DNA from: Polytrichum commune
Lineage: Eukaryota > Streptophyta > Polytrichopsida > Polytrichales > Polytrichaceae
Reading direction: 5' to 3'
Length of the DNA: 64,000 nt
Assembly: GCA_950295325.1 (NCBI GenBank)
Contig: OX485809.1
Coordinates: forward strand, 36,027,081-36,091,080
Each line of letters starts with the position of its first letter. Position 1 is the first letter of the stretch. The translations under genes were made by a program, and so were the position numbers. Under the pieces are notes generated by a model, which made no database searches, was not told the origin of the DNA, and saw only the letters and a program-made list of their open reading frames with translations. Positions 4,241 through 60,190 of this stretch are shown here, piece after piece.

Positions 4241-5089
4241 CTCTAAAATATGTAAGGGTAAATACCAAACACATGAGAATATAATATAAACAGTCTCCCG
4301 TTACCCCTAAGTTAAAATGAGCAATACTTGAATTGAATTTGAACAAATATGGATATTGATGTGAATATGTTTTTATAATATATATTACAATAAATTATAT
4401 TTTGAAGTTGTATTATAATATTTATGTAAATTAAATTAAATAATTATATAAATTCTATTTTATTTCCAAAAAACTAAAAACATTGCTACGTATGAGTAGA
4501 ATAGTGCCACTGACCCACCTAAAAAAAATTCAAGTGTAAATTCTTAAATTTGTGCATGATAGACCAATACAAAGTTTTTCCACACATATAAGATTAAAAA
4601 ATAAACGTTTGAACTAACCTAAAACGCCGCTTAGGGTTACGTCAAATTTTTCAGCCATCATTCTTTTCCAACGCCACTCTTCTCCACTGCCGCCATTTTC
4701 CAACGCCTTTCTTTTCCAACGCCGCTCTTTTCCAATGCCTCACTTCTCCAACACCGATCTACTTCGGCGCCTCTTAGTCTTGCAACTCTTACTCCAACAC
4801 CTTCTTGTTTCTCTCTGATGGTACCTCTTTATTCTTTCTAATTGTTATTTCTCCAAAGTTTAGAAGTTTTTCTAGTACTACAACATCTAACCTATTGCTG
4901 CATATTTTTTATCCTTCAGCTCTCTATCATCTTATTGCGTTCAATCCACTATCCAATAACTCTAATATCTTCATTTGCACCTCAACTGATCTTCGACTCT
5001 ACTTTCTACTTATATAAGCGCTTCAATACCAACTCTTATTCAATATTCAAATACCATCTTATTTTAATATGAATTTCTTCTTAAGCTTG

Positions 5090-6465
5090 TACTTAGAGCC
5101 TCACCCTTATCAAACAAAATTCTATGTTTTGAATTTATTTCTTTAGAGTGAGGCACATGCCTTATCCTCCTTGAAAGATCTGAATTTCTCTTTAAGCTTG
5201 CGCTAAGAGGTAAGGCACATGCCTCACCATCCTTAAGAAATCTGAATTTCTACTTAAGTTTGTATTTAGAGATGAGGCACGTGCCTCATTCTTATGAAAC
5301 AAAATTCTATATTTTGAATTTGTTTTCTTGGAGTGAGGCACATGCCTCACCCTCCTTGAAAAATCTAAATTTCTCAATAAGCTTATGCTTAGAAGTGAGC
5401 CACATGCCTCACCCTTATGAAACAAAATTCTATGCTTTGAATTTGTTTTTTTTTGGTGAGGCTCATGCCTCACCCTCCTTAAGAAATCTAAATTTCTGCT
5501 TAAACTTGTGCTTAGAGGTGAGGCACATGCCTCACCCTCCCTAAGAAATCTAAATTTATTCTTAAGTTTGTGCTAGAGGTGAGGCACATGTCTCACCCTT
5601 ATAAAACAAAACTTTATATTTTGAATTGGTCTTTTTGGGATGAAACACATGCCTCACCCCCTTTGAGAAATCTAAATTTCTCCTTAAGCTTGTGTTTAGA
5701 GCTTAGGCACATGTCTCATCCTTATAAAACAAAATTTTATATTTTGAATTGGTCTTTTTTGGGGTGAAACACATGCCTCACCCCCTTTGAGAAATCTAAA
5801 TTTCTCCTTAAGCTTGTGTTTAGAGCTTAGGCACATGTCTCACCCTTATGAAACAAAATTTTATATTTTGAATTTATGTTTTTGGGTGAGGCACATGTCT
5901 CACCTTTTTGAACCAAAATTCTATGTTTTGAATTTGTTTTCTTGGGGTGAGGCACATGCCTCACCCTCCGTGAAAAATCTAAATTTCTTCTTAAGGTTGT
6001 GCTTAGAGGTGAGGTACATGCCTCACCTCCTTAAGAATTCTGAATTTCTCCTTAAGCTTGTGCTTCAAGGTGAGGCACATGCCTCACCTTTATGAAACAA
6101 AATTCTATGTTTTTAATTTGTTTTTTTGGGTTGAGACACATATGTCACCCCCTTTGAGAAATTTGTATTTTTCCTTAAGCTTGTGCTTAGAGCTGAGGCA
6201 CATGCCTCATCCTTATGAAATAAAATTATATGTTTTGAATTTGTGTTTTTGCGGTGAGACAAATGGCTCACCCCCTTTGAGAAATCCAAATTTCTCCTTA
6301 AGCTTGTGCTTAGAGCTGAGGCACATGCCTCACCCTTATGAAACAAAATTTTATGTTTCGAATTTGTGTTTTTGGGATGAGGCACATGCATCACCCTCCT
6401 TAAGAAATCTGAATTTTTCCTTATGCTTGTGTTTAGAAGTGAGGCACATGCCTCACCCTTAGTGA
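5090..6465. repeat. Tandem array of about 22 palindromes (GTGAGGCA / TGCCTCAC)
   Basis: Near-perfect palindromes with arms GTGAGGCA and TGCCTCAC around CA occur every 60-63 bp from about 5146 to 6460, some decayed (GAAACACATGCCTC, GGCACATGTCTC). Two spacer types largely alternate, one with TTATGAAACAAAATTC and one with TCCTTAAGAAATCTGAATTT. Because the period is near a multiple of three and the palindrome reads through on both strands, it creates spurious 70-130 residue open frames. They show no sign of being genes. Confidence 0.85.
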
Positions 6466-6553
6466 GAAAATCAAATTTTATTGTGATTGCATAAAATGTA
6501 ATGTGTTTAGAGGATATTTTTATGTCCTTGAAATGGTTTATGTGTGCTTGTAG

Positions 6554-6920
6554 GAAGTGAGGTTGGAGGTGATATCATGTGGGACAAGGGGGTGGGCTTT
6601 CCAAGGCCCCCCGAATAAATATTTGAAGCCTTCGAATGCTTATAAGGATTATGAATGGTTTCTCACACGCGATGACAGACATGTGCTCCTAAATATTTAT
6701 ACTTATCCGTGGATGGAAAACAAGTATGGTGTTCTAAAGCATGGTCCAAAGGAGAAATTGTTCAAGAAGTTATTACTCATGTCTATAGAGATGATATGGA
6801 TTTTTGCGAGATATTCGTTGTTTCAAAAGCCTCAAATGCAATTTCTTCTTATGTTTTGAAATGCGCCAACATCATTGGAGATGTTGTTGAAAAGTTTTTA
6901 TATAGTTTGGAAAAAAAATG
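6554..6920 (+). pseudogene. Degraded coding exon of unknown function
   Basis: An acceptor-like TGTGTGCTTGTAG precedes an open frame starting EVRLEVISCG and containing NAYKDYEWFLTRDDRHV and IYTYPWMENKYGV. From about 6740 the better frame shifts by one and continues as IVQEVITHVYRDDMDF, then SYVLKCANIIGDVVEKFL, before stops. The two halves read like one coding sequence broken by a frameshift. I do not recognise the family. Its place right after the palindrome array matches the DUF7869-type gene at 56293, whose coding exon also follows a palindrome array. Confidence 0.35.
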
Positions 6921-42810: not shown

Positions 42811-43389
42811 GTAGGCAACACCTTAGCAAGTGCAAGTGTACCATTCCACTACTTGCGGATGTACCATGGTGACATGGTTAGGATTCATCCAAGGCCGGCC
42901 AAATATATGAATACAAAGGCCATACATTCCTTAAGAGATAGTTACCAATTATTTATTAGTATCCACATCTTTAATGACCATTTAAGGCTTTTTTCCTTTA
43001 ACACAAAAAGGACACGTAGGCCCAAAGTACAACAACTAATCCTTCTTTATAGGGGGTGGGGGGCTACAAAGGCATTTACAGAATCAGGTCAGTGGTATTT
43101 TGAAAATTCTTAAAAATTTCAAAAAAAAATCCAACCAACTCGTTTTTCAATCTTGTGGTGCCGTTATGGATTTACTAATGTGGTGTGAATTTCCTTTCAG
43201 GAAACCAGCTAGGACAATAGCAATCAGCAACTACACTAAATAGGAACACTATATTCGTTAAATTGAGACTTTTTGGGCATTTTGAGACATTCACATAAAT
43301 AAGAACAAGGATAAATGGAACACATATTGGAGAAAGTTGTAAGATGCGAACACTTTGAAGCAGGTGTTTAGACCAAGAACCCCATAAAT
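42811..43389. other. Intergenic DNA without a supported gene
   Basis: Contains a GGGGGTGGGGGGC patch (about 43051). The open frame 42715-43113 is largely antisense to the LINE remnant. Nothing else recognised. Confidence 0.45.
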
Positions 43390-43680
43390 AACTCATATTT
43401 GTGATGGTTTAGGGTGGGCAATCCAAATCTTAGACCACATTTAAGGGGAAACCTTAAAACATTCATATTATTGCACACAAAATATTAGAGCTTGTATGAA
43501 TATGGTTTAGGTAGGGCAATCCAAACCATAGATCTTATTGAAGGGTTAATATGTTAACCAATATAATATTGCATACAAAATATTCCAAACTCATATTTGT
43601 GATGGTTTAGGTAGGGCAATCCAAACCTTAGACCATATGGAAGGGGAAATCATGTCTAACTTGTATTATTGCAAAAAAAA
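43390..43680. repeat. About 95-bp tandem repeat, three copies
   Basis: Three units contain CATATTTGTGATGGTTTAGG, TAGGGCAATCCAAACC and TTAGACCATA-AAGGGGAAA. It lies just left of the gene-rich block and may mark its edge. Confidence 0.7.
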
Positions 43681-43792
43681 ACATACAAAGTGTGGCATGT
43701 AAAATGCATATCATGCTAACACCACACATGCATTGGATAGTGCGACCCAAAATGTTCTTGCCTATGGCCCAAAACCCTACGCCTACTATGGC

Positions 43793-44635
43793 CTATCTAG
43801 CCTCGGATACTACCTCTTTTTCTTTTGCTTCATTTTCTTTTGCTTTTTTTTCTTTTGCCTCTTTTTCTTTTGCTGCAGCTTCTTTTGCTCGCATTGCTTC
43901 AACATTCCTGAAAATCTCCGCCCCGCGACTATAGCCATTCTTGGGGTGAACACCATCAATAACACATTTTGTATTCCGTCGGCCGCCCGAATTATACGAC
44001 GAAGAATTCGAATACGATGAAGTGGACTGTCTTGCATTTCTGGTCATGGAGTAGAAACGCTCCAACTCGATGGACGCACTAGACCGCATAGGTTTACGGG
44101 TGGGAGCAACCTGCAACGCATCAACGCAAGAACACATGTGTTAGTTTAGGGAGGAAGACCCAAACGTGTCACACGTTCATTTTTTAAGTGCAAAATGATT
44201 GTAATGCGCGGATAACCATGTTTTTTGGGGGGGTTGGGGGGGGTTCACCTTGTCACCGGGGGCGTTCCCGTCGGAGTTGGCGAGGAGGGGCAAGGCATCC
44301 CGCAAAGGAATAGGAAGGGTTCCACTCTTCGTAGGCCGAGCGTCCATCCATAGCCGCCGTTGAGGTGTACTACTGCCGCCGGGCCGAGAGGGGGATGTCC
44401 GGACGCATTTGCGATTTATGCCTTTGAGCGGTGACGGGGACGCAGATCGCCGGAAGATTTGCTTGGGTGGGGGGCTATCGACGACGCCGGCGTCAAGAGG
44501 CTCCTTGGAGTAGTCGATGGTTGACGCGGCGTCGTAAACGGTCTCGTAGAAGAAGCTCCCCAAGTCTGACTCGCTGACGACGTCAATCGAGGGCTCCAAA
44601 CGCTGGAGCCAAAATTGGAACAAAACAAAACCCAA
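43793..44635 (-). CDS. Two-exon gene of unknown function
   Basis: Exon 1 ends at about 44249 with GACAAG/GTGAAC and exon 2 starts at about 44111 after GTTGCAG/GTTGCTCC. Joining the two keeps one frame: NSDGNAPGDK then VAPTRKPMRSSASIELERFY. A CTCCAG acceptor (44606-44611) just upstream of LEPSIDVVSESDLG suggests the listed first codon at 44635 may lie in an intron and the true start in an exon further upstream. The protein is rich in S, P and R in the middle. The C terminus has an 18-bp DNA repeat giving AKEKEAKEKKAKENEAKEKE, a basic/acidic coiled-coil-like tail. No enzyme domain is recognised. It follows the phosphatase-like gene on the same strand after about 110 bp. Confidence 0.5.
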
Positions 44636-44745
44636 GGAAAAGGGGGGAGATAGAGCGCGTGAAAATCAAGATACATATGAAGCGTAAATTACACAAAATG
44701 GGCAGGCGCATATACACACACACACATACAAACACACGTACTGTC

Positions 44746-45558
44746 TCAAATGAGCTTGTTAAATTTCGCGTGAGATAACAACTCTCTGTACAAATGGTCT
44801 CGTGGATCCAAGTATCTCTCGCCTATGGGATTATTCCTAACAAAATTGTTTACGGGAAGTCCGCTTCCCCAGAGCGCCTGGAGGTATTTACTAAGGTCTA
44901 ACAAAAATCGGTCCCGGACCTTCTCGACCGTCCACGTAGGGCACACTATGAAGTTGGCTGTCGGGTTCAACATGTTCTTTGCGGCGCTGTCGTCCACCAT
45001 GAGCGTGTTCTCGCGGGTGGGGCGGACGTCGTAGGGGACGCCTATCAAGGACGGTCGCTGGTCCCAAAAAATGGGCTTCAAGACCTTGAGGTATTGGGGG
45101 GAAGCGGGGTTGTTTGGTTTTTTGACGACTTTGCCGTCCTGTGTGTACAATATTCTACAGGCTTCCTGTGCTAGGACCATGCAAGGGGGCTCGATGCCCT
45201 TGAAGATGAACTCCACGACCGCATTGGTGTTCTCGGCCGTCATGGAGCTCCACACGACCACCCACCATCGTTGTTGGGCGATCTGGAGGAAGGTCCGAAG
45301 CCACGGGCGGAGGTGAACTAGCTTGCTCTTTATGAACGTGGGCGGCCCGTCGTAATTAGCGTCCTCGGGCTTGCAAAAGGGCACTGTGGGGGCCCTAGGG
45401 CAATGAACGCACTGCACGAGGACACCGTTCAGGTCTAACACCAGGAATCGTTTCTTCGGCAGCGGGGGCGGGGCGGGTAAAACCGGGGGGGCCGCCGTGC
45501 TGCCCTCTGCGCTCCTTGGAGAAGAGCGTCGGGGAGCCGCTACGCTATGCTCCGAGCC
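44746..45558 (-). CDS. FCP1/HAD-like phosphatase domain, terminal exon
   Basis: The exon begins after an ATCCGCAG acceptor at 45558 and runs 270 codons to TGA. A proline-rich lead (APPVLPAPPPLPKKR) precedes FLVLDLNGVLVQC, the HAD motif I of the FCP1/NIF family at about residue 42. WWVVVWSSMTAENTNAVVEF is the motif II-like segment and TLMVDDSAAKNM the motif III-like D-D pair. FCP1-type enzymes remove phosphate from proteins such as the RNA polymerase II tail using DxDx(T/V). Here the second D is N (DLN), a variant I associate with plant FCP1-like proteins, so activity is uncertain. The start lies in an upstream exon that I could not fix (a GC-rich candidate leader lies at 45830-46020). It may be a captured or a resident host gene. 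Confidence 0.72.
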   Translation of the reverse strand, partial: GSEHSVAAPRRSSPRSAEGSTAAPPVLPAPPPLPKKRFLVLDLNGVLVQCVHCPRAPTVPFCKPEDANYDGPPTFIKSKLVHLRPWLRTFLQIAQQRWWVVVWSSMTAENTNAVVEFIFKGIEPPCMVLAQEACRILYTQDGKVVKKPNNPASPQYLKVLKPIFWDQRPSLIGVPYDVRPTRENTLMVDDSAAKNMLNPTANFIVCPTWTVEKVRDRFLLDLSKYLQALWGSGLPVNNFVRNNPIGERYLDPRDHLYRELLSHAKFNKLI

Positions 45559-46026
45559 CTGCGGATACGATCGAGAGAAAACGGTGGGCGACTTATGTCA
45601 TGCTATGTCCAAACGAAGCATTAAGGAAACGAGTGTTCTTGGTGCAAACACAAAACCAATTGATTCATTTTGGAGGGGGTGCAACAAGGGATACAAGAGA
45701 GACAAGAGCATACAAAATACATTCAAACACAATATACAAGTATATAGGAGTCAAAAATGGTGATTGTATTGTATACAATGCTCTATGTACATTTTGATTG
45801 GGGGAAGCCGCGTTGAACGATGCGTTCAAACTAGCCTACTTCTAAATCTAAGAAAATTTGAAGAGACGGGCCGCCGTGATGAAGACTTCGTCGCAAGCCG
45901 GGGTAGGTGGACGAACGAATGGTCGGGGGGATGTGGCGAAGGGCGCGAGTGCCGGGGGGGCGACGTGTGTGTGAGTTTAGGGTAGCTAGGGGACACGACC
46001 AAGGCAAGAAGACAAAGACCCATGGA

Positions 46027-46048
46027 GTTTGGGTCGACCGACCCAAAC
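46027..46048. repeat. Palindrome just downstream of the ParB-methyltransferase-like stop codon
   Basis: Arms GTTTGGGTCG and CGACCCAAAC around AC. It lies 10 bp past the stop codon, at the presumed upstream border of the phosphatase-like gene, and is the leftmost copy seen. Confidence 0.9.
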
Positions 46049-46057
46049 TGAGTGGGG

Positions 46058-47542
46058 TCAGTGCATTATCTCGCCTTGGTCGTGCCTTGACGACGTTGAT
46101 GCCGGCATCGCCTGCGCTGCCCCACCTCTGTCACCGCCGCCTCCGACGACGACGTCAGCCGCAACCTGCTCCTGCAAAGGCTGACTGTCAGGCCTTTGTC
46201 CCAACCCAACCTCCGCATGCGCATCATGCATTGGTTCATCGACTGGGTTAGGAGTAGAGGTATCACCAGGCCCTTGCGGGCCTTCAACGTCTAACATGCC
46301 CTCGTCCACCGGGGTCTGGTCGGGGACGGGGTTTGGGTCGGCTGACCCAAACCCTGCTGCTTGGCGAGCGTCGCTCTGGGACGCTGCAACGTGGGCACTG
46401 TTTGGGTCGGACGACCCAAACATGTGGGGGTCGTCCCGCTGGTGTTGTGGGGGTGAGAGGATGGGAGGCCGGAGCGGCGGGGGCGCCAACGAGCTGGACG
46501 CTCCGGCGACGCGCCAAAGGTTGGGGTCGTCCACCTGCTGGACGGGCGCGTAAGGGCGGGCGTGCGGCTGCAGCAACTGCGTGAAGCTGAAGGAATGCTG
46601 CAGCGTGGGCCGCGGGGCGATATCCTGTGGCGGGAAGCCTGCGGGCAAGTGCGGGAATGAACTCGGGGGAGCCATCACCAATCCCTGCGCCAGCATGCCC
46701 TGGATCACTTGCGTGATGAGCTCCGCTTGGGACGGAGTTTGGGCCATCGCCCTTTGCCGCTCCTGCTCCAACAGGAGAGCCCTCAACTCCGCGACTTCGT
46801 TGCGGACCGAGGGTTCCTCGGCGGCAACCCTCTGCAGTCGCACACGCTGCTCCTCGTCTCGGAGCATTTTTGCGTTCGCCTCCTCCACGGTGAGGACCTC
46901 CGGTTTCACCCTCACATTCCCGGCGAACGCTCTGGGGGAGGCAGGATCCGACCTCAGCCTCTTGGCGAGTTCCATGTCGTCCTCGTCCTCTGAGCTTATT
47001 GCGATTGTCTCCTCCACCGCATAGTCCCCGTACAGCTTCTTCCCCTTCATCCTTCTCCGCTCCCTGAAGGTGGCCGTCGCGTCCCTCGAGTACATGTCCT
47101 TCGCGTCGTCCACCGTCAACGCGGGCACCAGCCTGCTTTGCGGCGTGGCAGCCCGCATGGCCTTCTTCCGCTGAGGGGCCTCGGATTCTTGAGTGAATCC
47201 TGTTGCCCCTTCCTCCACCTCCCCCTCCACTTTCTCTGCTTCCTCCTCCTCCTCCTCCTCCCCCCCCTCCTCCCCAACCTCGCCACCTCCTCCCATCGAC
47301 GGATTGCCCGGATGCAACCCGATGAGCGGCTCTGGCAATTGAACGGGGGCACGCATGGCGAATTCACCTGGGTTGATTCGCCTCGCCATATCCAAAGGAT
47401 TCTCGCCCCCCTCGACTATCTCTTCAACGTAGGATCCGGGTATCCAGTCAAGGATGTCCATTTTCTTGGCCAGTGCCTTCTGGGTCCTGTAAAATTGAAC
47501 ATCGGCATCCTCCACATAGGAGTAGATGTTCAACCCAGACAT
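46058..47542 (-). CDS. Exon 3 of the ParB-methyltransferase-like gene: acidic, coiled and proline-rich tail
   Basis: 495 codons including TGA, uninterrupted, starting MSGLNIYSYVEDADVQFYRT, which completes the methyltransferase-like fold. Next come an acidic run (EEGGEEEEEEEAEKVEGEVE), a basic patch (RERRRMKGKKLYGDY), a coiled-coil-like stretch (EANAKMLRDEEQRVRLQRVA, ELRALLLEQERQRA) and a P/S/G-rich tail ending RHDQGEIMH. Two genomic palindromes (46331-46352 and 46400-46421) are translated here as FGSADPN and FGSSDPN. Like the other exons it is clearly GC-rich against the flanking DNA. The plus-strand frames 46581-47024, 47138-47563 and others are antisense shadows. Confidence 0.62.
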   Translation of the reverse strand: MSGLNIYSYVEDADVQFYRTQKALAKKMDILDWIPGSYVEEIVEGGENPLDMARRINPGEFAMRAPVQLPEPLIGLHPGNPSMGGGGEVGEEGGEEEEEEEAEKVEGEVEEGATGFTQESEAPQRKKAMRAATPQSRLVPALTVDDAKDMYSRDATATFRERRRMKGKKLYGDYAVEETIAISSEDEDDMELAKRLRSDPASPRAFAGNVRVKPEVLTVEEANAKMLRDEEQRVRLQRVAAEEPSVRNEVAELRALLLEQERQRAMAQTPSQAELITQVIQGMLAQGLVMAPPSSFPHLPAGFPPQDIAPRPTLQHSFSFTQLLQPHARPYAPVQQVDDPNLWRVAGASSSLAPPPLRPPILSPPQHQRDDPHMFGSSDPNSAHVAASQSDARQAAGFGSADPNPVPDQTPVDEGMLDVEGPQGPGDTSTPNPVDEPMHDAHAEVGLGQRPDSQPLQEQVAADVVVGGGGDRGGAAQAMPASTSSRHDQGEIMH

Positions 47543-47752
47543 CTGCACAATCCAAATCAATAGTATTAGTATAAACTAATGAAGAGTAAGGAAAAATGAC
47601 ATCCAAAATAAAATAAGAATAGTTAGTTTGGGTCGAGCGACCCAAACTAGGGCATGCACAGTTTGGGTCGCTCGACCCAAACTATGGGCATACCCAGTTT
47701 GGGTCGCTCGACCCAAACCGTCCGTATAGGGCTTTCAGGGTTCTTTGCTTAC
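47543..47752 (-). repeat. Intron 2 of the ParB-methyltransferase-like gene with three palindromes
   Basis: Palindromes at 47626-47647, 47661-47682 and 47697-47718 (centres AG, CT, CT) are spaced 35-36 bp apart within a 210-bp intron whose donor is GTAAGC and acceptor TTGTGCAG. The spacers share GGCATGC or GGGCATACCCA. Confidence 0.85.
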
Positions 47753-49084
47753 CATTGCTGCAAAAATCGGTTTGGATCCCCCGAAAACGTTGAAGATGCA
47801 GTCCCCTCTCTTGGTGAGGGTCCTCATCATCCACAGGTAGAACTCCATGCGCAGCTCATCTGCGGGGTAGTTGGCGTACTTCGCCTCGTCATACAAGCTC
47901 CTGCTGGTACCCAAGCCTTCTTGGACTTGGAAGAGCTTTTCCATCCTGGCTATAGGATGGTTGGGCACCTTAAGTAGATCAGCTTTGTACACGAAGTACA
48001 AGCACAACACGTTGACGATCTTCGTCTTCTTGTCTTTCAACGTGCTGTACGCCCCCTCCGCCGGTGCAGCAACGTAGTGAGATTTCGAGACGGCATACTC
48101 CGGCTGCAATTTGCGCACGATCTCGTAAACATGCTCTGCCCTCCTATCCTCGACAATCTAGAGCCAGACGTCGACCTCCCTGAATTTGGGGCTGGCGTAG
48201 TCCACGAACTTCGACAAGAAAGCATCGTAAAAAGGGGTGCTCATAGTCCCCTCGAATGAGGCTCCAGGGATATTCCTGAAGTCTATCATTCCGAAGGGGA
48301 AGCGGTCCCCGGCTTTAGTCCTGATCGCCTTCCTGGACTCAGAGCCCGGCCAACCTTGGATCCTGAGAGGCTCGACGGTGACCATGTTGAATTGCGCATC
48401 GCCTTCGAAACTGACGATCTTCTTCTCCTTTATGAAGTTGGAGAAGGCCCGCGCTGAGTGTTCGGGAAGCACCCGGTTCCTCCCCCCCTTCACGAGCTTG
48501 GATCTGAGGAAGTCGTCTCCCGCCTCCCTCATGAGTGCCGCCATGGATGCACTGGTGAACTTATATTCGGCTTTGAAGGCCCTCCAGTGCGCCTCGTCGA
48601 CCTCTCCGTCCACGATGAGCTTCTTCTCGGGCACCAGCTTGTGCAGCTCTTGGACGATGGTCGTCTTCTTCTTCCTGTTCTCCGTCCATTCCTTCATGGT
48701 GTAGCATGAAGGGACGAAGATCTTGGGTTTGGTGAAGACGATCTTGGGGTGGACCCAGCATCTCTTCGCCGTCGTCTCCACGTGTAGGATGTGGGACGCC
48801 GCTTTTCCCATCTCTGTCTCGGAAAGACCTTGAAGCGCTCTGAAGAACTCCCTCACCAGAGGCTTCATTTGCTTGAAGCGCGTAGTCTGGTTGAAGAGCA
48901 TGCCGGTGTCGGGGTCCATAAGGTCCCCCGTCTCGTGTTTTTAAAAAACACTCCTCCATTTTTCCCACACGGAGTCGGACGCGGTGATCAAATATATTTC
49001 TCCTCGCAACTCGTTATATTTTTTTTGCTTGTGGCTAGCATTGTCTATCGAGGAGAATTTATTGATCATCTGATATTTGAAGTC
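47753..49084 (-). pseudogene. Exon 2 of the ParB-methyltransferase-like gene
   Basis: 444 codons from DFKYQMINKFSSIDNASHKQ to GGSKPIFAAM. TAA at 48941-48943 (after WEKWRSVF) and TAG at 48158-48160 (between REVDVWL and IVEDRRAEHVYEIV) are the only breaks. The open pieces 48158-48919 and 47735-48118 are parts of this one exon in the same frame. The exon holds a helical central region (MKEWTENRKKKTTIVQELHK) and the methyltransferase-like fold with the glycine motif near its end. Antisense frames 48237-48704 and 48791-49096 are shadows. Confidence 0.62.
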
Positions 49085-49290
49085 CTGCACACGTAGCCAA
49101 CAATTCATGTTAGACAACATCTCATGGAATAACAAATGTAACATTAGTTTGGGTCGATCGACCCAAACTATAAACCTGGTAAAGACAACAAAGCCATGCA
49201 AGAGTTTGGGTTGACTGACCCAAACTATGAATTTGTTGAAGACACTAAAACAATGAAAGAGTTTGGGTCGGTCGACCCAAACATACTCAC
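49085..49290 (-). repeat. Intron 1 of the ParB-methyltransferase-like gene with three palindromes
   Basis: Palindromes at 49147-49168, 49204-49225 and 49261-49282, exactly 57 bp apart; the middle one has one arm base changed (GTTTGGGTTG). Intron length is 206 bp, donor GTGAGT, acceptor GTGTGCAG. Confidence 0.85.
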
Positions 49291-50616
49291 CTCCCATTTG
49301 GGGTTCTTATCTTTAGCATTCTCCCTTTCCCTGAGAGGCCTGCCATAAAACTCCCACACCTCCCTCGAGGCCATGATGTTTTTGATCCACGATGCCTGAT
49401 AGGCCCTCTTTTTGTTCCCCATGTTGAAGAACCTGGAGATGTCGCTGAGGACCGTCTCGTTGTCCGACCAAACCACCAAAGCCTTCCAAACTTTTAGTTT
49501 CTCCTTCTGGTTGTTCGGGTCGTTTCACTCGGTCATCAACTGGATTTTTTTTTATGCCTCCACACTGTGCTGCCCGTCAATCAACCAGAAGTCTCCTTTG
49601 GAGATTGTCGGCCACATATCAGGCGTCGGCATTCTCTTCAACCCTTGTGGCATGACAACAATCGTCTGCCTGTCGTCCTTGAACTGCCCGCCCAAGATTT
49701 GAGCGACCATCCAGTCGACGTAGGCGTCTTCCTTGGCTCGGACACATTTCTCGGGTGGCGCAAGGTGGCACTGCGCAATGTTGACCTCGAACTTGAAGTC
49801 CCTGCCCATGAAGAAGCAGTGCAGGCATTTTGTTTCGAAGTTGGTGTTTATTTTTTGTATTTCGCCTGCATCCACCTCCTGGCCAGGCTTCGGCATCCGG
49901 AGCTCCGGGGAAACAGGCTCGTCAGTCATCACCGATGACTCTCTTCCCCTTTTGGAAGGGGTCGTTTGACGGCTTGTTGATGGCGTTGGCGTCTCGCTAT
50001 CAGCCGGCGTTGTTGTAGTACTTGTCCGTCTCGACTCCACAGGGACCGCCCGCGGTTTCCTCACAGTTTGTGGTCTTGAGGACCCTGCGCCTTCTTCCGT
50101 CGTTGCCTTCCGCCTCACAGGTTGTTGTGTTTTGGGTTTGCTTTGCAGCGCCTTGTTTAGAACCGTGATGGCCTGTTTTAACTTCGTGAACCTGCTCGCA
50201 ACCTTCATGTTGGTTACACTGCCATCTATGAATATGGCCTCCGGTTGTATGGTTTCAGGGTCGACGCAGGTCTCCTTGGCGTACAGGGGGTCGAAGGGCT
50301 CGGAGAACTGGTGCATGAACATGTGGACGTTCTGCACGGCGGAGTTCTCCAGTATGACGTCTACATAGTCCCCGAGAGACTGGACAGACGCAACCTCCCA
50401 TCCCGTCAGCGTTGCCCAGGTGTGCTGCTCGTGGGTCCCCACCTTCACCACGAATAGCAGCTTGAACATGGATGCCTTCACCACCTGAACGGACCATGCC
50501 AGAACGACGCCATCTTTTGGGACGTAAGAATCGTCCTGTGGAGTTTCATACTCCTGCCAAAGGTGGTCTGGCGCGAGCATGAACCACCTTTCACCTGGTC
50601 TCTTTTTAGGGGCCAT
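49291..50616 (-). pseudogene. Exon 1 of the ParB-methyltransferase-like gene
   Basis: The start codon (cat at 50614-50616) follows GGTTGCAG directly, so a leader intron ends exactly at the ATG and the protein begins MAPKKRPGERWF. Residues 1-180 form an unrecognised domain (LTGWEVASVQSLGDYVDVIL). Residues 185-265 are a low-complexity S/T/P/R linker with a basic run (TPSKRGRESS) that could act as a nuclear signal. The ParB-like domain follows. Two stops, TAA 49552-49554 and TGA 49525-49527, interrupt it just after the DGQH motif. Beyond them the same frame continues as NDPNNQKEKLKVWKALVVWS and REVWEFYGRPLRE to the donor. The frame open only downstream (49225-49479) is this same exon after the stops. 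Confidence 0.6.
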
Positions 50617-51824
50617 CTGCAACCCAAGAAATCGAAACTGTGAGTTTCGGTCGATCGACCCAAAGTATTGCAATGTGCATTTAACATTTGGAGGATTGAC
50701 TCAAACATTACTTAATTTTCAAAGTCGTTTTAAAAGATCTTTTAGATTTTAAATTGTGGTTTAGGTGGTCACCCTGCAATGTTTGAGTCGAGCGACCCAA
50801 ACATGATGAGGCTGCAAATTTAGGTAGTTTAACCCATTCATTTCAGAGTGCAATGTTTGGGTCGAACGACCCAAACATTTACTTAATTTTCAAAGTTCTT
50901 TTATATTTTACAATGTGTTTTAGTTCTTCTCCGTGTAATGTTTGGGTCGACCGACCGAAACATGTTAGGCTGTAAATTTAGGTAGCTCAACCCAATCATT
51001 TCAGACTGCATTGTTTGGATCGCACGACCCAAATATTTACTTAATTTTGAATGTTCTTTTATATTTTACAATGTGGTTTGTTCTTCTCCCTGTAATGTTT
51101 GGGTCGAGCGACCCAAACATGATGAGGCTGCAAATTTAGGAAGCTCAACCCATTCATTTCAGACTGCAATGTTTGGGTCGAACGACCCAAACATTTACTT
51201 CATTTTCAAAGTTCTTTTATATTTTACTATGTGGTTTGTTCTTCTCCCTGTAATGTTTGGGTCGAGCGACCCAAACATGATGAGGCTGCAAATTTAGGTA
51301 GCTCAACCCATTCATTTCAGACTGCAATGTTTGGGTCGAACGACCCAAACATTTACTTCATTTTCAAAGTTCTTTTATATTTTACAATGTGGTTTGTTCT
51401 TCTCCCTGTAATGTTTGGGTCGAGCGACCCAAACATGATGAGGCTGCAAATTTAGGAAGCTCAACCCATTCATTTCAGACTGCAATGTTTGGGTCGAACG
51501 ACCCAAACATTTACTTAATTTTCAAAGTTCTTTTATATTTTACAATGTGGTTTAGTTCTTCTCCCTGTAATGTTTGGGTCGAGCGACCCAAACATAATGA
51601 GGCTCCAATGTTTGGGTCGCTCGACCCAAACATTTAGTTCATTTTAGGCTGCAATTCAAATATTTATTATATTTTAATATGAGTTTGGGTCGTCTCCCCA
51701 AACTACTGTGTTTCCAGATGCATGTTTAATGCTTGGGCAACATATACAATGCTTATGCATTGTATATGTAACAAGAACCTAAAGGGAATGATGCAAATTG
51801 TGTGCACTGATACAAATTGCTTAC
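50617..51824 (-). repeat. Leader intron with a 158-bp dimeric palindrome array
   Basis: The intron runs from donor AAG/GTAAGC (51824) to acceptor TTGCAG (50617), 1208 bp, directly before the ATG. Palindromes start at 50644, 50781, 50855, 50940, 51013, 51097, 51171, 51255, 51329, 51413, 51487, 51572 and 51610. From 50781 to 51572 the spacing alternates 73-74 and 84-85 bp, so the unit is a 158-bp dimer, and the centres mostly alternate AG and AA. Spacers share TGATGAGGCTGCAAATTTAGG and TCAACCCATTCATTTCAGACTGCAATG (read in parts). A last degenerate palindrome is near 51682. Repeated 74-82 codon open frames here are artefacts of the array. Confidence 0.85.
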
Positions 51825-52455
51825 CTTGTCTTTCAAACTCTTGAAAGTTGCTCTCACAATCTGCTTCTTACAACCAGACTCAGAAACTCTGTTGTGGCAC
51901 TAAAGAACAACTCTCACAAAGACCTCAGAAACACAATGAATCTCTCAAGCACCCTAAAACTTTCTCACAAACCCCCTGATTCTTGCAAACTCAGGCCTAA
52001 TTTGAAAGACCTCTACCTTTCTATCACACTCGACCGTGCTCACTTCTACTCAACCTAAAATCACTCCATGCATGAAATTTACAAAACAAGTAAGGAGTTC
52101 AACACAATAAACCGCTCCGAACTCACTCAAAGCTAACACTCTGGACCAAGAAGAGAGAATAACAAGAGGAAGACAATAACAAGAGGAATAGAATGAGAGA
52201 AGAGGAGGAGAAGCATCAGAGAGGAGGACAGGAATGAAGGAGAAAGAAGAATGAAAGGAAGCGGCGCGACCAAGACAAAAGCAAAAGGTGCGAAAGGAAG
52301 CGTTTGGCGCGGCGCTATGGAAAGCGGCGGCAGCGTTTCCAAGAGCGGCGCTTGGCGTGGAGGAAGAGAGGAAGAAAAAGAGAGAAAGAAAAAAGAGGAG
52401 GGGAGAGAAGGAGAGAGCGGAAGGGGTCACCCTAAACCCTCGAATCCGGGCCATT
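51825..52455 (-). other. Probable 5-prime leader exon of the ParB-methyltransferase-like gene
   Basis: Read on the minus strand it is rich in CT (CTCTCTCCTTCTCTCCCCTC at about 52395-52415), like many plant leaders, and ends at the GTAAGC donor at 51824. A 134-codon minus-strand frame (52050-52454) consists mainly of S, F and L from the CT-rich sequence and is unlikely to be a real protein. The exact transcription start is not determined. Confidence 0.45.
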
Positions 52456-52486
52456 AGATTGCGCCGGGCCCATCAACGGCTCAGAA

Positions 52487-52567
52487 GCCTCGCGGGCCAA
52501 CACCCTGCCAGGTGTCGACACCTCCTTGGTTAAGGTGGTTGCCCGCGAGGCTTGTGGTGTTGACACC
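52487..52567. promoter_or_regulatory. Palindrome cluster in the divergent promoter region
   Basis: GGTGTCGACACC (52511-52522) and GGTGTTGACACC (52556-52567) are 12-bp palindromes. Interleaved with them, GCCTCGCGGGC (52487-52497) and GCCCGCGAGGC (52541-52551) are exact inverted copies. The cluster lies just upstream of the presumed leader of the minus-strand gene, within a GC-rich island (52440-52680), and could bind a dimeric regulator. The function is inferred from position and symmetry only. Confidence 0.45.
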
Positions 52568-53202
52568 TGCCACCCTGGGCAAATTGCCTTCCTGGTTGTC
52601 CTTGCCCCTAGGTGCGGGACATAGGAGGGCCGGCGCCTCTCTTGGCCGCCCGGCCCCGGCCTTCTAACCCGCTATTCATTAGCGGCAATTCAATACCACT
52701 CAAAAACCTACGTGGACTAAGGTATTCCACAAAATTAACACCATCGCCAACTCATATTTTAATGGTGTTCAATTGAATGATCACCCGTTGGAATTGATAA
52801 CATCGTAGAATGTAGCCATTATCGTTTTGGTGTATGAATAATGTAATTTATGGAATCATATGAGAGTGTTACAAAGTCTAAGAGGAGTAAGTCATAATTA
52901 TATTGCAATCCACAAAGGCAATTACACGGTGCAATAATATAAATATGGTAACCATTCACATGGTTAACAGTTTAGGATTATGTATTGTAATTTATATGAT
53001 GGTTGTTGGTAGAGGACAATGCTCTAGTCTATAATGGATACCCTAACAAGTAGCATTAGAGTGAACATTAATATATGTACTTAGAAGTTCACATTTGAAG
53101 TACATGGGAGAAACAAATGATTACAAATGTATCTACTGCAACCCCATGGAGTTCACATATCATATGAAGTCATTTAAACATTCAATTTGATGTTTGATGA
53201 TG

Positions 53203-53230
53203 CCTAAACCCTAAACCCTAAACCCTAAAC
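53203..53230. repeat. Interstitial telomeric repeat (CCCTAAA)n
   Basis: Almost exactly four CCTAAAC units in a row, the plant-type TTTAGGG repeat on the opposite strand. The flanks are unique AT-rich DNA. Confidence 0.9.
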
Positions 53231-54067
53231 AACACAAACCATAAATGGATGGCACATAGGTCAAATGACATGGGCCTTGGTGCTTGTAGTTTCCAATACA
53301 AATGTATAATGTCATCACAACATCCTAATTCACAAACGTGAAAGATGGATGTGTGGTTTTTCACGAATGAACGCACTAAAGGAAATAAATGATATTGTGC
53401 TCACAAGTAGGTGATACAATATTAACCTATAACCTTGTCACCTGGTAAGAAGAGCATAAGAACTAGATTATAATAGATAGGATGTTGTTCATGTTAACAT
53501 GTTATTTGGAATAGTGAAATATTATATATTAATTTAAGGTAGATTTCATGTTGTGAATGATATGAGGACATACCTTTTGAACTTTGCATGTTTTGCTCAC
53601 ACACATTGCTAGAGTTCAAGGGACTTCACGATAGGTTCAAACATCATTGAAACATTGAATGTGCCAAATGTCATTTGTGGTTTATGGTTCCATTAATGAC
53701 TTCCACATAGGTACTAGGTTATTGTCACACTTGGAGCCTTGAGGATGAAGCAATATTGGGTGCACACATTACAACACAACAGATGTTCTTTTAACTAGCG
53801 GAAATTGAAAGTTGGCCAAATTATTCAAGTTTGTCATGGCATTAATTATTTGTTTTCAAAATATAAGTCCTCATGTGAGAGTGTAAGTAATTGCATTAAC
53901 TATTATATTTAGTGACTTTTAGTGACTTTTAGTATATGAAGTTTTGTAATACATGCACATCTTTTGTCAATATATTGTTTGAAATATACCATAATGTTTG
54001 ACTACAAGTAGAGTAAAACCCCTTAATAGATATAATCTTACATATTGTCACAGGGTTATTGGTATTC

Positions 54068-54415
54068 AGTGTATGCGTTCATATGTAGTGTATCAAAATC
54101 TTTATATCCTTTTTAGTTATATGATAGTTAGTGTTTGATACACTTAAAACGAACGCATACACTTCCTATTACTAACCCTATGAGAGTAAGTAACATTAAA
54201 TGTAAACTCAAACACTAAATATCCACTGTGGTGATATATGGAAGTTACATATAGGAATTTAGTATTAGTAAGGATGTGAGAAAAAAATACAACAATGATA
54301 AAAGGAGAAAGGAGATGGCAATAGGGAAGGTGGTGGTGTATTCATGTATAAAACTAATTATGAAAGAGTTGAAGAATAGTGTTGACCAAGTTAGGGTGGT
54401 AACAACTTTAAATAA
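54068..54415. repeat. Repeat copy 1 left of the palindrome array (partner at 59865-60190)
   Basis: GTTAGTGTTTGATACACTT, GAACGCATACAC and TAAATGTAAACTCAAACACT through ATGATAAAAGGAGAA recur at 59865-60190 in the same orientation. The block starts with a hairpin (GTGTATGCGTTC at 54069, GAACGCATACAC at 54150). The two copies flank the array and the DUF7869-type gene. Confidence 0.7.
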
Positions 54416-54586
54416 TATATGTTGAATTATTCATTTGATGGTTGGGGCAACGAAGAGCCAAGCTAAATATACATTGTCTATTATTGACAAGAAGCGGGAA
54501 ATTGAGTCAGAAGGTTTGAATTAACGTCCAAAGGAGACCAGGCGGGAAAGGCATCCAAAGAGGATGCCCAAAGCGGAGGCAGGTAG

Positions 54587-54593
54587 TATAAAG
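54587..54593 (+). promoter_or_regulatory. Candidate TATA box of the DUF7869-type gene
   Basis: TATAAAG lies in a GC-richer context (GGAGGCAGGTAG upstream, AGCCCAACC downstream), about 25-35 bp before a likely start and a leader that would run toward the palindrome array. Confidence 0.45.
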
Positions 54594-54807
54594 AGCCCAA
54601 CCCCCCCAAATGCTGGTTCTTTCTTTCATGTCCCAATCCTGAGATTGCTGCAAGCTCTCTAAGTTGGAGCTGTAATACACGGTTTGTGTACGTTTCCATT
54701 CATGAGCAGCTAATTACAACAAATATCTACGAGTTCAGTTGTTCCAAATAGGTTATATATAGATTAATAGAGAATCACCCGAATAAATAGGCGGATTTTG
54801 CGGAATT

Positions 54808-56079
54808 GTTTGGGTCGGTCGACCCAAACCCAGCCTTACAGTGTGGGTGCTCTCTGTTGTGAGCCTGAACCCATCCTGCCTCAAGGTTTGGGTCGATCGA
54901 CCCAAACCCAGCCCTACAGTGTGTGTGCTCACTGATGTGAGCCTGAACCCATCCTGCCTCAAGGTTTGGGTCGATCGACCCAAACCCAGCCCTACAGTGT
55001 GTGTGCTCACTGATGTGAGCCTGAACCCATCCTGCCTCAAGGTTTGGGTCGATCGACCCAAACCCAGCCCTACAGTGTGGGTGCTCACTGTTGTGAGCCT
55101 GAACCCATCCTGCCTCAAGGTTTGGGTCGATCGACCCAAACCCAGCCCTACAGTGTGGGTGCTCACTGTTGTGAGCCTGAACCCATCCTGCCAAAAGGTT
55201 TGGGTCGGTCGACCCAAACCCAGCCCTACAGTGTGTGTGCTCACTGTTGTGAGCCTGAACCCATCCTGCCAAAAGGTTTGGGTCGGTCGACCCAAACCCA
55301 GCCCTACAGTGTGGGTGCTCACTGTTGTGAGCCTGAACCCATCCTGCCAAAAGGTTTGGGTCGGTCGACCCAAACCCAGCCCTACAGTGTGGGTGCTCAC
55401 TGTTGTGAGCCTGAACCCATCCTGCCAAAAGGTTTGGGTCGGTCGACCCAAACCCAGCCCTACAGTGTGGGTGCTCACTGTTGTGAGCCTGAACCCATCC
55501 TGCCAAAAGGTTTGGGTCGGTCGACCCAAACCCAGCCCTACAGTGTGGGTGCTCACTGTTGTGAGCCTGAACCCATCCTGCCAAAAGGTTTGGGTTGGTC
55601 GACCCAAACCCAACCCTACAGTGTGGGTGCTCACTGTTGTGAGCCTGAACCCATCCTGCCAAAAGGTTTGGGTCGGTCGACCCAAACCCAGCCCCAAAGT
55701 GTGGATGCTGTGTGTAGTGAGCCTGAACTCATCCTGCCTCGAGGTTTGGGTCGCTCGACCCAAACCCAGCCCTCTAAGTGTGGGTGTTGTCTTTAGTGAG
55801 CCTGAACCCATCCTGCCAGAAGGTTTGGGTCGATCGACCCAAACCCAGCCCCCTAAGTATGGGTGCTCATTATCGTGACCTTAAACCCATCCTGCCAAAA
55901 GGTTTGGGTCGCTCGACCCAAACCCAGCCCCCTAAGTATGGGTGCTCCTTGTCGTGACCTTAAAGTCATCCTCCCAAAAGGTTTGGGTCGCTCGACCCAA
56001 ACCCAGCGCCTAAGTGTGGGTGCTCTCTGTATTGAGCCTGAAACCTCCTCCCAAAAGGTTTGGGTCGCTCGACCCAAAC
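54808..56079. repeat. 78-bp tandem array of 17 palindromes in the leader region of the DUF7869-type gene
   Basis: Palindromes with arms GTTTGGGTCG and CGACCCAAAC start at 54808, 54886, 54964, 55042, 55120, 55198, 55276, 55354, 55432, 55510, 55588, 55666, 55744, 55823, 55902, 55981 and 56058. The step is exactly 78 bp for the first 13 copies, then 77-79. Centres are GT, AT or CT, and arm bases are almost invariant. Spacers read CCAGCCCTACAGTGTG, GTGCTCACTGTTGTGAGCC and TGAACCCATCCTGCC, and the right-hand copies are more diverged. Because 78 is a multiple of three, long repetitive open frames appear on both strands (up to 352 codons). They are not genes. Confidence 0.92.
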
Positions 56080-56292
56080 CCAGCCTCTAAGTGTGGATGG
56101 GATCTGGATGACAGTGTGGCCACTGGCCATCCAAAACCTTTACGAACCCAATGGCATATTAGTCATATGAACTTGTATGAGCACTGAGTATTTGCAATTT
56201 TGTTTATATATGATGGTTTTTGTGGTCTTCGATTTGAACCTACAATTTTTGTGATTTTTTGACAATGTTCAATGTTCATGTGTGTAGGCAGA

Positions 56293-59200
56293 ATGGATGG
56301 GTTTAGTGAAATTGGGGATTGGTCATCTGATGACATGGCCACTTGGCCATCTGCATCTGATGATGACTTAGACATTGTCGGGGAGGCTACTATGGCTGAC
56401 AGTGCGGATGAAGATCATTTGGATTTACCTTCGTCTTCCGTACTGCAGTGTCCCATTGTTGAATGTACGGGACTTTCAAGGGCTTCGTGGGTGAATTTGG
56501 AGGTGATACTTCTTAACGATAGTGGAGTTGTTGTGGCGGAGGGGATTTGCCGTAACACCCATCCGCAAGATTGCATTGATGAAAACCCGCTTGGCACCGA
56601 GGACGTTGGGGTTGTCATATTGGAGTCGGTCGTTCATTCCGAGGTGGATCCCACTCATAGGTTCTCCCTCCGCAGGTGGCCGTTGAGGAATGTCACAATT
56701 GATGGAGTTAGCTTGCGTGAACATGAGCAACGACACATGCAAATCGAAAAGGAGGTGCAAGCAAACATGCGGCCGCGCAAGGGTCAAAGAAAATACGATA
56801 CATTGGCACGTCCTGCTCCGTCTGCAACTGATTGTAAACGTCAAAGGTTGCTCGGGGAGGAGTCCATTAGAGAAGTTGCCACAAAGGATTGTTGTGTGCA
56901 TCGTTGTTGCCAATTGTTTCCAAGGGATAAATTGAAGGCCATCCGCGAAGAAATGTGGCTTGGAGATTTCCGTCTAAGATCCACAAGAAAACTTGATGTC
57001 CATAGGGCGATACATGTGAATGGGATGGGTCGCAAGGTCATCACCATTGAAAGCATGGACGTGTGTTGTAAGGCATGGTACACCATTCACGGTGTGTCGA
57101 AAGCGGACTTTTATCGACAAGCTGCTTATGCCAAGGAAGGCCGCCGGTCCCGTCACCATGGTAATGTGGGTTTAAAGAAGCCTAGGGAAGCAACAAGGCA
57201 AGCAACGGCCACTCTAGCAACCATCATTGTCCCCCTTGCCGATGCAATGCCGCACAAAACACGCACGCTCACAACCGGTGAAAAGGTTGTGGAGAAAGTT
57301 CTTCCCACAGGCACAAAATGGAAAGACATATTGTTGGACGTGAATGCAGTTGGCGAGAAGATTGGGTTGGAGCCAATTTCATTGTCAAAATTGAGTGCAA
57401 TTAAGAAACAAAACTTTAGCGAATACATTACAAAAAGACGAGGGGACAAATTTGCCAGGTGCTCTAATTGCGAGAAGTTGAAGCGCCTCCGGGATGCACA
57501 CACGATGGGTACCGAGTCATATGCAGCGCATCAATTGAACTATTTCAAGCACGTAAACATGCAAGAGGCACACCATAATGATTATTACACAAATAGAGCT
57601 TTGTCCATCTCCAGGCCCTTGGAGGTTCTTACGGTCATCCATGACAAAATGGACCATGCCAAAACAGCCTCTTCATGTTTTGCAAATCGAATCAAGGCCA
57701 CGGATGGGTTTTTTAAGTTGTCTGTATCGGTTACAGGTGAACTTCGAAACAATGTCATGACATATCTTAAATGTTGTGGTTTTTTATTCCGTGATGTACT
57801 TGAGAACATGGATTCACTCAAAATGGTTTAATTATATCTAATCACGTTGGGTTGGCATTGCAGGAATGATTGCACATGAACACGGTGATGTCAAGTTTGC
57901 TCATTATGTTCTTGATTTGTATCCAGCGGATTCAAACCACACAATAGGGTCATTTGCAAGGCTTTTACGTGATTTAGAGAAACCGCCAGCCTATTCTTCA
58001 GGATTGTTATTTGAAAACACGGGTTCAACACCTCTATATGAAGCGTTGTTGGATGGAAAAGATGTATGCTTTCATTCGTTGCCAGAGCCACCCAGTGATC
58101 CCGTGATTGCCAAAAAGTTGCCTCCCACTTTGCGTGTCCAATTGGACAATTGTGCCAAGGACAATAAAAGTAGATATGTTTTTGCATATTGGTCGTTGTT
58201 GGTTGCGAAAGGCATTTTCAAGGAGGTTTTTGTGTCCTTCCTATTGGTAGGCCACACGCACGATGATATTGATGCATCTTTTGGGCGGTGGAGCATGAAG
58301 TTGCGGGAGGAGGATTTCCCTACAATCCCGTTATTGATGAAGTTGTACATGGATTTGGATAACGTTCCGGTCATCCCCCATATGATTGAGGAGGTGCCAG
58401 ACTTCAAGGCATTTATAGAACCTTATATTCGAAGTGGAGCTCACCGATTGATCGGGCATACGAAGGCACAACAATTCCGCTTCTATATGCGTGACGATGG
58501 TGTCCCGGCCATGCAATACAAGTTGTTGTGCACGACACAAGACTGGAGCCCGCCGGAGGGTCTTCTTGTGTGGCGCGTGGATGCGGATGGAAAGACCATG
58601 TTACCGGATGGGGAACCTAGGCCTTGCAAGCCAATAGCCATGAAGAATTTGGAGGATATTTTGAAAGGTATATCAGGCTTCATACAATATTGGGAGAGTT
58701 TGAAAATAGCGGATGTTGGCGGATCATGTTGGCATCATTATGGGAGTTGGATACATTATTGGACACGTGTTCGTGCCGCCTTGGCAGACCTCCACCAAGA
58801 TAGCCCTCATACTTTGAGGCATGGATTTTGGCCACAAACACGAGTCGATGTACAAGCTTCGGAGCCTAGTCTTTTGGGAAATGGAGAGGTTCGAGAGGAG
58901 TTTGATGTGGACGACCATTACGTGGGGCCGGCTAGTAGTCGTCCCCCACCATCTTTCCGCATTGCAGTGGATTGTCATGAAGGTTATATGCTCATTTTAC
59001 GTCCTGGAGACGAGACATATGCAAAGCCAGTGTGGGTGGCAAGAACTTTGTCCAAACCCAATTTTGTAACTTCCAGCCCTCATTTTCGACAGATACAAGT
59101 GGAGTACTATCGACCGACAGCAAGGAATGAAGATGTGATTCGGCATTATACAGGCTGGGATACAAACCCTAACTTTCGGTGGAAGGTGGATTCTGAGCAC

Positions 59201-59350
59201 GGTCCATCTTGGGTAGATACAGATTCCATATTCATAGCATGGAAACCACGGAAAAACCATAGTGGATTAGTGTCCATCCCTCAAAAGTACATAACTTTTG
59301 CAAAAGACAACCTTGCTCGGATTGCACAAGAAGCAACCCACGTTGAATGA
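56293..59350 (+). CDS. DUF7869-type transposase-like protein, two exons, apparently intact
   Basis: Exon 1 56293-57736 and exon 2 57864-59350 join at ACAG/GTGAAC and TTGCAG/GAATG (phase 1), giving 976 codons. The junction reads SVSVTG then MIAHEHGDVKFAHY, and the frame beyond the donor has no such continuity. An acceptor-like GTGTGTAG at 56288 precedes the chosen ATG; an earlier in-frame ATG (56272) lies before it. Features: acidic N terminus, C/H-rich CVHRCCQLF (about 199-207), ARCSNCEKL (about 388), then the DUF7869 core with VQLDNCAKDNKSRYVFAYW (D576) and LLVGHTHDDIDASFGRWSM (GHTHDDID at 611-618). These D and H/D residues suggest an RNase H-like, DDE-type nuclease, typical of transposable elements in plants, fungi and animals. 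It diverges from the ParB-methyltransferase-like gene. No stops or frameshifts, so it may still be functional. Confidence 0.78.
57737..57863 (+). other. Intron of the DUF7869-type gene
   Basis: 127 bp from GTGAAC to TTGCAG. Reading on from exon 1 without splicing gives a TAA at 57829-57831, so the unspliced frame ends there. Splicing restores the family's continuous VTG-MIAHEHGD sequence. Confidence 0.75.
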
Positions 59351-59864
59351 GAAGTTGGTAGGATTGTGTTAGCATGATTATAGTTTAATACGTAATTATA
59401 GCAATATAAATTACACATATGTGTGCTCTTCAAAATTGGGGCAGAGTTTGGGTAGAACTTACGAATACTATATTGTTTGGAGTTGGATGAATATCCATTT
59501 ACTATATTTCAAAAAAAAATGAAGTTCATCTTATTATTATGTTTGGGACTATATTGTCGAATGAAGAAATATGCATTTATTACATGCACTTTGTATGTTG
59601 CAATGTCTATATTCTATTGTGCATGCTAATAATAGAAATCAGTTTATATGTTTTTTGGGTGAAACTTGTTTGGAGTGCTCTACCCAATGTGTTTTTGTTG
59701 ATGAAGTTGGTGTCGAGTGCTCTACCATATGTGCTTATGTCCGCACATCATAGATTTGGGATATTAGAACATATAATATAATTGAGATTGTTGACAATAT
59801 AGTTTCGGGCCTCTTCAAGTTCTTTGATCCATATATTAATTTGAGACTAGAGAAAGTCTCAATT
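59351..59864. other. 3-prime flank of the DUF7869-type gene
   Basis: AT-rich, no gene. GTGCTCTACCMWATGTG occurs twice about 50 bp apart (about 59675 and 59717). No palindrome of the 46-56 kb type is present here. No clear polyadenylation signal could be fixed. Confidence 0.45.
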
Positions 59865-60190
59865 TAACGAATATAGTGTTTAGGGTGTTTAGTGTTTGAT
59901 GCACTAAATATGAACGCATACACAAAATATCAATCACCTTTGAAAGTAAGTAACAATAAATGTAAACTCAAACACTATATATCAACTATGAAATATGTGG
60001 AAGTTACATGTTTGAATTTAGTGTCAATAAAGACATGAAAAAAAATTTAGCAATGATAAAAGGAGAATTTCAACATATCTTCTAGCAAATCTTCTAACAC
60101 TAAGTATCAAAGAATCAGAAATTAGTGTTGAGCAATGTAGGGTGGTAACAACATTGAGTATGATCAAACACTAAATATCCTATTTAGTGT
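59865..60190. repeat. Repeat copy 2 right of the DUF7869-type gene
   Basis: Direct copy of 54068-54415 (GTGTTTAGTGTTTGATGCAC, GAACGCATACAC, TAAATGTAAACTCAAACACT, GCAATGATAAAAGGAGAA). It extends at the right to AAACACTAAATATCCTATTT and AGTGTAGTG, which mirrors its left end, so the unit is probably a MITE. Confidence 0.65.

Follow-up and report, generated by a model that had tools for sequence, protein, structure and literature searches.

The genome of Polytrichum commune (GenBank assembly GCA_950295325.1) carries on contig OX485809.1, between positions 36,027,081 and 36,091,080 of the forward strand, a 64,000-nucleotide stretch that we call the window and that holds a 16.6-kb DNA transposon with a gene, here named gene2, whose product contains a ParB-like block. 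A first-pass annotation of the window had described gene2 (46058-50616) as a ParB-like domain joined to an amino-methyltransferase-like domain in an intron-bearing nuclear gene, linked to a transposase-like gene and to a palindrome array. That linkage stands: gene2, a divergent gene for a DUF7869 protein and the palindromes lie within one element, whose ends, genes and arrays are as follows (window coordinates).

43241-43244, no strand: left copy of the target site duplication (TSD), 4 bp, TAGG on either flank
43245-59880, no strand: whole DNA transposon, 16.6 kb, delimited by similarity boundaries against seven other copies
43245-43272, plus strand: left terminal inverted repeat (TIR), 28 bp, a perfect inverted match with the right end
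44749-45597, minus strand: open reading frame (ORF) for a NIF/FCP1-like phosphatase of 283 amino acids (aa), part of the element (PF03031, E=4e-15; at least 137 copies)
46058-47542, minus strand: exon 3 of gene2, starting with methyltransferase-like sequence and continuing as a low-complexity tail; in-frame palindromes at 46332 and 46401
47543-47752, minus strand: intron 2 of gene2, palindromes at 47627, 47662 and 47698
47753-49084, minus strand: exon 2 of gene2, interrupted by stops at codons 490 and 751; encodes the middle region and the C-terminal, methyltransferase-like part
49085-49290, minus strand: intron 1 of gene2, palindromes at 49148, 49205 and 49262
49291-50616, minus strand: exon 1 of gene2, interrupted by stops at codons 355 and 364; encodes the ParB-like block, which lies inside residues 241-442 and has its aligned core at about 316-409
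50645-51632, no strand: palindrome array A, upstream of gene2, 158-bp period with two palindromes per unit; 12 palindromes at 50.8-51.6 kb
54808-56096, no strand: palindrome array B, 17 palindromes with a period of 78 bp, lying upstream of the DUF7869 gene
56263-57831, plus strand: N-terminal ORF of the DUF7869 gene, 56-65% identical in other gene2-bearing families and 39% in loci L020 and L024
57842-59350, plus strand: DUF7869 ORF, likely transposase (PF25273, E=8e-42; at least 150 copies)
59853-59880, minus strand: right TIR, 28 bp, a perfect inverted match with the left end
59881-59884, no strand: right copy of the TSD, 4 bp, TAGG on either flank

Against the seven other copies the left boundary falls at 43244-43245 in all seven, and the right at 59880-59882 in all six that have a right end. 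A 4-bp TSD flanks each of the seven copies in which both ends were read (the window copy and six others), in one case within an A-run. Duplications of 4 bp are also a feature of Sola1 elements. The 28-bp TIRs and 4-bp TSD of the element are in line with membership of the Sola1 superfamily, and passages of a published account give a 4-bp TSD for Sola2 (PMC3627910). Copy numbers across the genome are lower bounds and reach at least 115 for gene2. Among the matches listed, a DUF7869 copy in divergent orientation lies no more than 30 kb away from 80 of the 115 gene2 copies, compared with a mean of 2.8 and a maximum of 7 in 200 trials of random placement. DUF7869 is not mentioned in the open literature that we searched. 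The phosphatase has DLNGVLV at the usual DxD site, as do some plant HAD-type proteins, and is perhaps a captured host gene.

The three exons of gene2 are each divisible by three in length and join in phase 0 across GT-AG introns, as the first-pass annotation had it, and both intron positions recur in related genes. The single frame of 1380 codons that it had read from them is interrupted in the window by in-frame stops at codons 355, 364, 490 and 751, and because of these four stops the window copy is a dead, decayed one. In other copies exon 1 is mostly open: it has an open frame of at least 458 aa in 93 of the 115 gene2 copies listed, compared with 382 in the window, and such frames are long enough to extend beyond the first two stop positions of the window copy (exon 1 was the part read). 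The motif FWLIDGQHSVEA, including D347, does lie at residues 343-354 and FGGS at 876-879, as reported. What had been missed is that the copy is dead, that it sits between TIRs and TSDs, that more than 100 copies exist, and that the palindrome is specific to the family and occurs inside introns.

Relatives of gene2 were sought in the roughly 10 kb that lie upstream of each of ten further DUF7869 copies, picked for diversity. They were found in L021, L022, L023, L025, L026 and L027, and another, L019, adjoins a nested insertion. Identity is 21-43% by segment, and the two places at which the alignments are interrupted coincide with the introns of the window gene, which bears out the gene model. 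A more distant relative, L031, gives a weak profile match (E=4e-4, in a small sequence set); in a separate comparison of profiles it matches gene2 with a score of 40.3 against a shuffle maximum of 23.4. For exon 2, the ratio of nonsynonymous to synonymous change (dN/dS) is 0.09-0.16 in six of the seven pairs with measurable synonymous change and 0.36 in the seventh; three of these seven usable pairs exceed 1.1 synonymous changes per site, and three more pairs were saturated. Judged by these exon 2 ratios, the relatives are under purifying selection. Over the parts compared, DUF7869 identity among gene2-bearing families is 56-72%; for gene2 it is about 21-43%, and the palindrome differs. This low identity of gene2 is as expected of a specificity partner. 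The viral contigs scanned yielded no relatives with the patterns used. The nested insertion (L007, L008; C6:37591682-37610862) is a window-type element lodged in a related one of 67-68% DNA identity, within the latter's DUF7869 gene, and L019 is the gene2 relative of that host element. Just beyond the right end of the L020/L114 element, a minus-strand frame at about 2595-3011 of L114 resembles by eye part of the gene2 relatives and is perhaps a fragment of a neighbouring element.

The ParB-like block is borne out by profile comparison with hhalign. It scored 30.6 against six ParB sequences, with none of 200 column shuffles as high (maximum 21.9), and 27.3 against thirteen ParB sequences, a set partly overlapping the first six, again with none of 200 shuffles as high (maximum 18.8). 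The segments RQTI-V-P and GEFWIIDGQHS-EA of gene2 align to the two boxes of ParB. Matches below threshold also fall at the DGQHS motif, to the ParB-like PHROG 1033 (E=0.017) and to TIGR03187, DGQHR (E=0.22). Single-sequence searches with gene2 returned nothing significant and no Pfam family above the cut-off, and sequence and profile searches of the PDB with gene2 gave no matches. Single-sequence AlphaFold2 runs on two window stretches reached predicted local distance difference test (pLDDT) values of 33 for the ParB region and 38, too low for the fold to be used. In ParB-fold proteins, passages of the published work describe an arginine of box II as needed for nucleotide binding. This conserved arginine of the ParB/sulfiredoxin box II is absent from gene2: the window copy has serine there, as have all six relatives whose sequence spans this position (that of L019 stops short of it), and L031 has valine. 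The alignments support a ParB-like block in gene2 that is without the box II arginine.

The methyltransferase homology proposed for the C-terminal part finds no statistical support. The METHYLTRANSFERASE part of gene2 scored 13.8 against a methylase profile for which shuffles averaged 15.0; this earlier reference had retained 59 of 71 candidates by a length filter, with four added. Against an enlarged reference of 93 sequences, partly overlapping the earlier one, the score was 17.0, with 23 of 200 shuffles as good, and for the C-terminal part of gene2 alone 15.0, with 11 of 200 as good. When compared with L031 alone or L038 alone, 91 and 35 of 100 shuffles, respectively, did as well. With the methylase profiles the best alignment falls each time at motif I (GDCIFNVFGGSKPIFAAMMSGLNIYSYVEDAD against G-VLDPF-GSG---AA---GR---G-E), whereas with L038 or L031 alone it falls elsewhere. 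The motif-I-like stretch reads NV(F/C)GG(S/T/N)K in place of FxGxG, and a DPPY-like motif IV was seen neither in the window copy nor in the seven relatives read. Pfam, NCBIfam and PDB searches returned no methyltransferase match. The earlier remark that the methylase motifs are degenerate is thereby upheld, provided that this is a methylase at all; if gene2 does descend from one, the window copy and the seven relatives would be without the chemistry of motifs I and IV.

Other methylase-related sequences were met in the assembly. L113, L038 (C1:9654600-9664297), L037 and L039 form a repeated gene family with pieces that look kinase-like by eye and a DGNH motif. The N6_N4 methylase domain of L038 is clear (PF01555, E=1e-7) and keeps a DIPY motif, and this family is a possible active methylase counterpart, as far as its motifs tell. 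Profile comparison did not confirm the DGNH stretch of L113 as ParB: 18 of 100 shuffles were as good against gene2 and 12 of 100 against ParB. The small contigs C10, C12 and C23 carry bacterial-looking ParB and methylase genes, including the ParB-methylase fusion L035, and are probably contaminants or symbiont DNA.

The window element contains 39 copies, at up to two mismatches, of the palindrome TTTGGGTCG-NN-CGACCCAAA: 17 in array B, 12 in array A, three in each intron of gene2, two in exon 3, and one each just upstream and just downstream of gene2. None lies in the remaining 47 kb of the window, and within the element the right end and both DUF7869 ORFs are likewise free of them. Palindromes with 9-bp arms number 41 in the element, compared with a mean of 2.2 and a maximum of 5 in 30 first-order resamplings. 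Their density in the window copy of gene2 is 10-14 per kb in introns and 0-1.4 per kb in exons, where the two at 46332 and 46401 are in frame and encode FGSxDPN. In all 17 sources scanned, the dominant palindrome has the same arm-NN-arm geometry, with letters set by the family: TTACGAACG in L019, L022, L023 and L027, TTACGGACG in L021, L025 and L026, CCACGGGTG in L020, CCACGGGCG in L024, GGTGAGGCA in L031 and L032, and TTTGTGCGC-NN-GCGCACAAA in L113. The family's own palindrome was present in all 11 introns checked among the 14 of the seven relatives (both of L019 and the second of L027 were left out), where we placed the intron limits manually on the alignments and allowed 12 bases of slack; the two window introns bring the total to 13. 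Genome-wide, the window palindrome extended by one base pair at each end has 9,231 exact copies, and its backward control has none. Among the first 100 palindrome places, C1:616-626 kb repeats the layout of the window around a listed gene2 copy, while the others form clusters away from any listed gene2 copy. Elsewhere in the window, 19 copies of a second palindrome, GGTGAGGCA-NN-TGCCTCACC, occupy 4045-6438 and 6532-6891 beside a decayed L031-type gene piece; these are the remains of another element family.

The plan of the element is not new. In passages of PMC12477816, algal Sola1 elements are described with a ParB-methylase gene opposite the transposase, and a role of the proteins in binding the element that encodes them, and in modifying it, is proposed there. 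Because this arrangement has been published, the window element is not of a new kind; its striking feature is the family-specific palindrome, found in arrays and in introns. The word stem 'palindrom' is nowhere in the main text of that paper, and its passages on the algal elements do not name target sites. As far as those passages describe the algal element, both are giant DNA transposons whose accessory gene runs on the other strand from the transposase and has a ParB-like domain with a methylase, here a methylase-like part only. They differ in size (16.6 kb against 21.5 kb), in the NIF phosphatase gene carried here, in the host, which is here a LEAFY-bearing plant genome, its four LEAFY SAM-domain matches marking it as a streptophyte, and in the methylase part, which is here degenerate and statistically unrecognisable. 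A second parallel is VANC of the Arabidopsis VANDAL elements, which, according to passages of PMC5735166, binds family-specific tandem motifs in non-coding parts of its own element, introns included. The window element likewise has short family-specific motifs repeated in introns and intergenic parts, mainly non-coding (two of 39 in exon 3); unlike those of VANDAL, they are palindromes and not 9-mers in the same orientation, and a part in anti-silencing is putative here. DndB, a ParB-like regulator, binds the palindrome TACG-N10-CGTA according to passages of PMC4507180, and this pattern is present in register in two palindrome types here, those of two related families with TTTACG(A/G)ACG-NN-CGT(T/C)CGTAAA, which may be coincidence. 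DndB differs in being bacterial, its family PF14072 has no match in this genome, and the arginine of DGQHR is serine in gene2. The ParB-N6_N4 methylase fusions of phages and bacteria, in the passages of PMC12704722 that treat them, also combine a ParB-like block with a methylase part, yet L035, the fusion read here, keeps GGRR in box II, DPPYG and FAGSG, and gene2 has none of these. KDZ elements, considered because of the palindromes, were set aside after a literature search. The open literature on Sola1 and palindromes and on KDZ and palindromes, as far as its accessible text extends (subscription journals lie outside this scope), did not describe palindromes particular to a family in elements of this type.

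Gene2 probably encodes a factor for sequence-specific self-recognition and not a methylase. The protein would be a ParB-fold DNA-binding factor with decayed enzymatic residues that binds, as a dimer, to the palindromes of its family and thereby marks the element's own copies. Such marking would regulate the two divergent genes, or would counter host silencing as VANC does for VANDAL elements, and with palindromes particular to each family, related families would not read one another's sites. The element ends, the copy number, the divergent gene pair, the ParB-like block, the selection on relatives and the family-specific palindromes in arrays and introns are observed; on this reading gene2 belongs, as an accessory gene, to a DNA transposon of Sola1-like type, and the window holds a decayed copy. 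The reading as a whole, an accessory gene2 whose product is a dimeric ParB-fold reader marking its own copies through family palindromes, has in our judgement about an even chance. A more pointed version appears tentative: a catalytically dead ParB-methylase descendant would serve as the reader of a palindromic 'password', rewritten for each family and placed in arrays and in the reader's own introns, and would protect or activate only its own kin.

Several points weigh against the self-recognition reading. Palindrome binding by gene2 is a prediction from sequence. The ParB recognition is based on a small reference set, L031 is matched or bettered by 193 of 200 shuffles against the ParB profile, and unrelated families score alike elsewhere in these proteins (YEATS, 0.015). 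Gene2 was not among the hits listed when the whole genome was searched with PF02195 and PF14072, and neither a helix-turn-helix nor any other DNA-binding domain was recognised in it. A gene2 relative was not found within 10 kb upstream of DUF7869 in L020, L024 and L032; the 692-aa DUF7869 family may have one further upstream. The palindrome scan excluded arms of 85% A+T or more, and its genome control is the rest of the window.

The DUF7869 elements L020 and L024 carry palindrome arrays with no gene2 detected in those 10 kb, and for this reason the DUF7869 protein could itself be the reader, which is the chief doubt about the self-recognition reading. The palindromes would then be internal binding sites of the transposase, for a transposition complex or for autoregulation, and gene2 would do something else; the position of the large array B just upstream of the DUF7869 gene is in keeping with this. 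The window palindromes are, however, concentrated in the gene2 introns and the shared intergenic region, all 39 lying outside the right end and the DUF7869 ORFs, and those of L113 accompany a methylase gene with the DGNH motif, no DUF7869 match being found in L113 or L038. We regard this alternative as doubtful, and an active methylase as unlikely. In that bolder form of the first-pass proposal, gene2 would be an N4/N6 DNA methyltransferase marking the element's own palindromes, for which one can cite the algal ParB and DNA methylase protein, the clear methylase domain of L038 in another family of this genome, and the repeated alignment at motif I. The scores of gene2 within the shuffle range, the shift of the alignment when L038 or L031 is used alone, and the state of motifs I and IV in all copies read argue against it.

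It is similarly improbable that the palindromes serve a host factor or arise from repeat turnover, the element encoding no reader for them. Tandem arrays can expand unaided, and reader binding is predicted; on the other hand, geometry and placement (arrays and both introns) stay constant while the letters vary by family, which is hard to obtain unless an element-encoded reader changes with them. Plasmid sopC arrays, which serve in partition, offer one more parallel, in that a ParB-like block occurs here together with tandem palindromic sites. That the array and the ParB-like protein form a partition or tethering site seems very improbable, as the element ORFs gave no ParA-like match in the Pfam search and the box II arginine is missing from the window copy and the six relatives covering the site.

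For the self-recognition reading, candidate target sites can be read directly from sequence as seven arm-NN-arm palindrome types, three of them with an adjoining gene2 relative, and this opens the idea to binding assays and methylome data. The pairs of gene2 and palindrome form a natural series for the co-evolution of DNA specificity. If the more pointed version of the reading is true, anti-silencing of a sequence-specific kind would have arisen independently in these elements, as a second case next to VANC, and from a prokaryotic DNA-modification protein.

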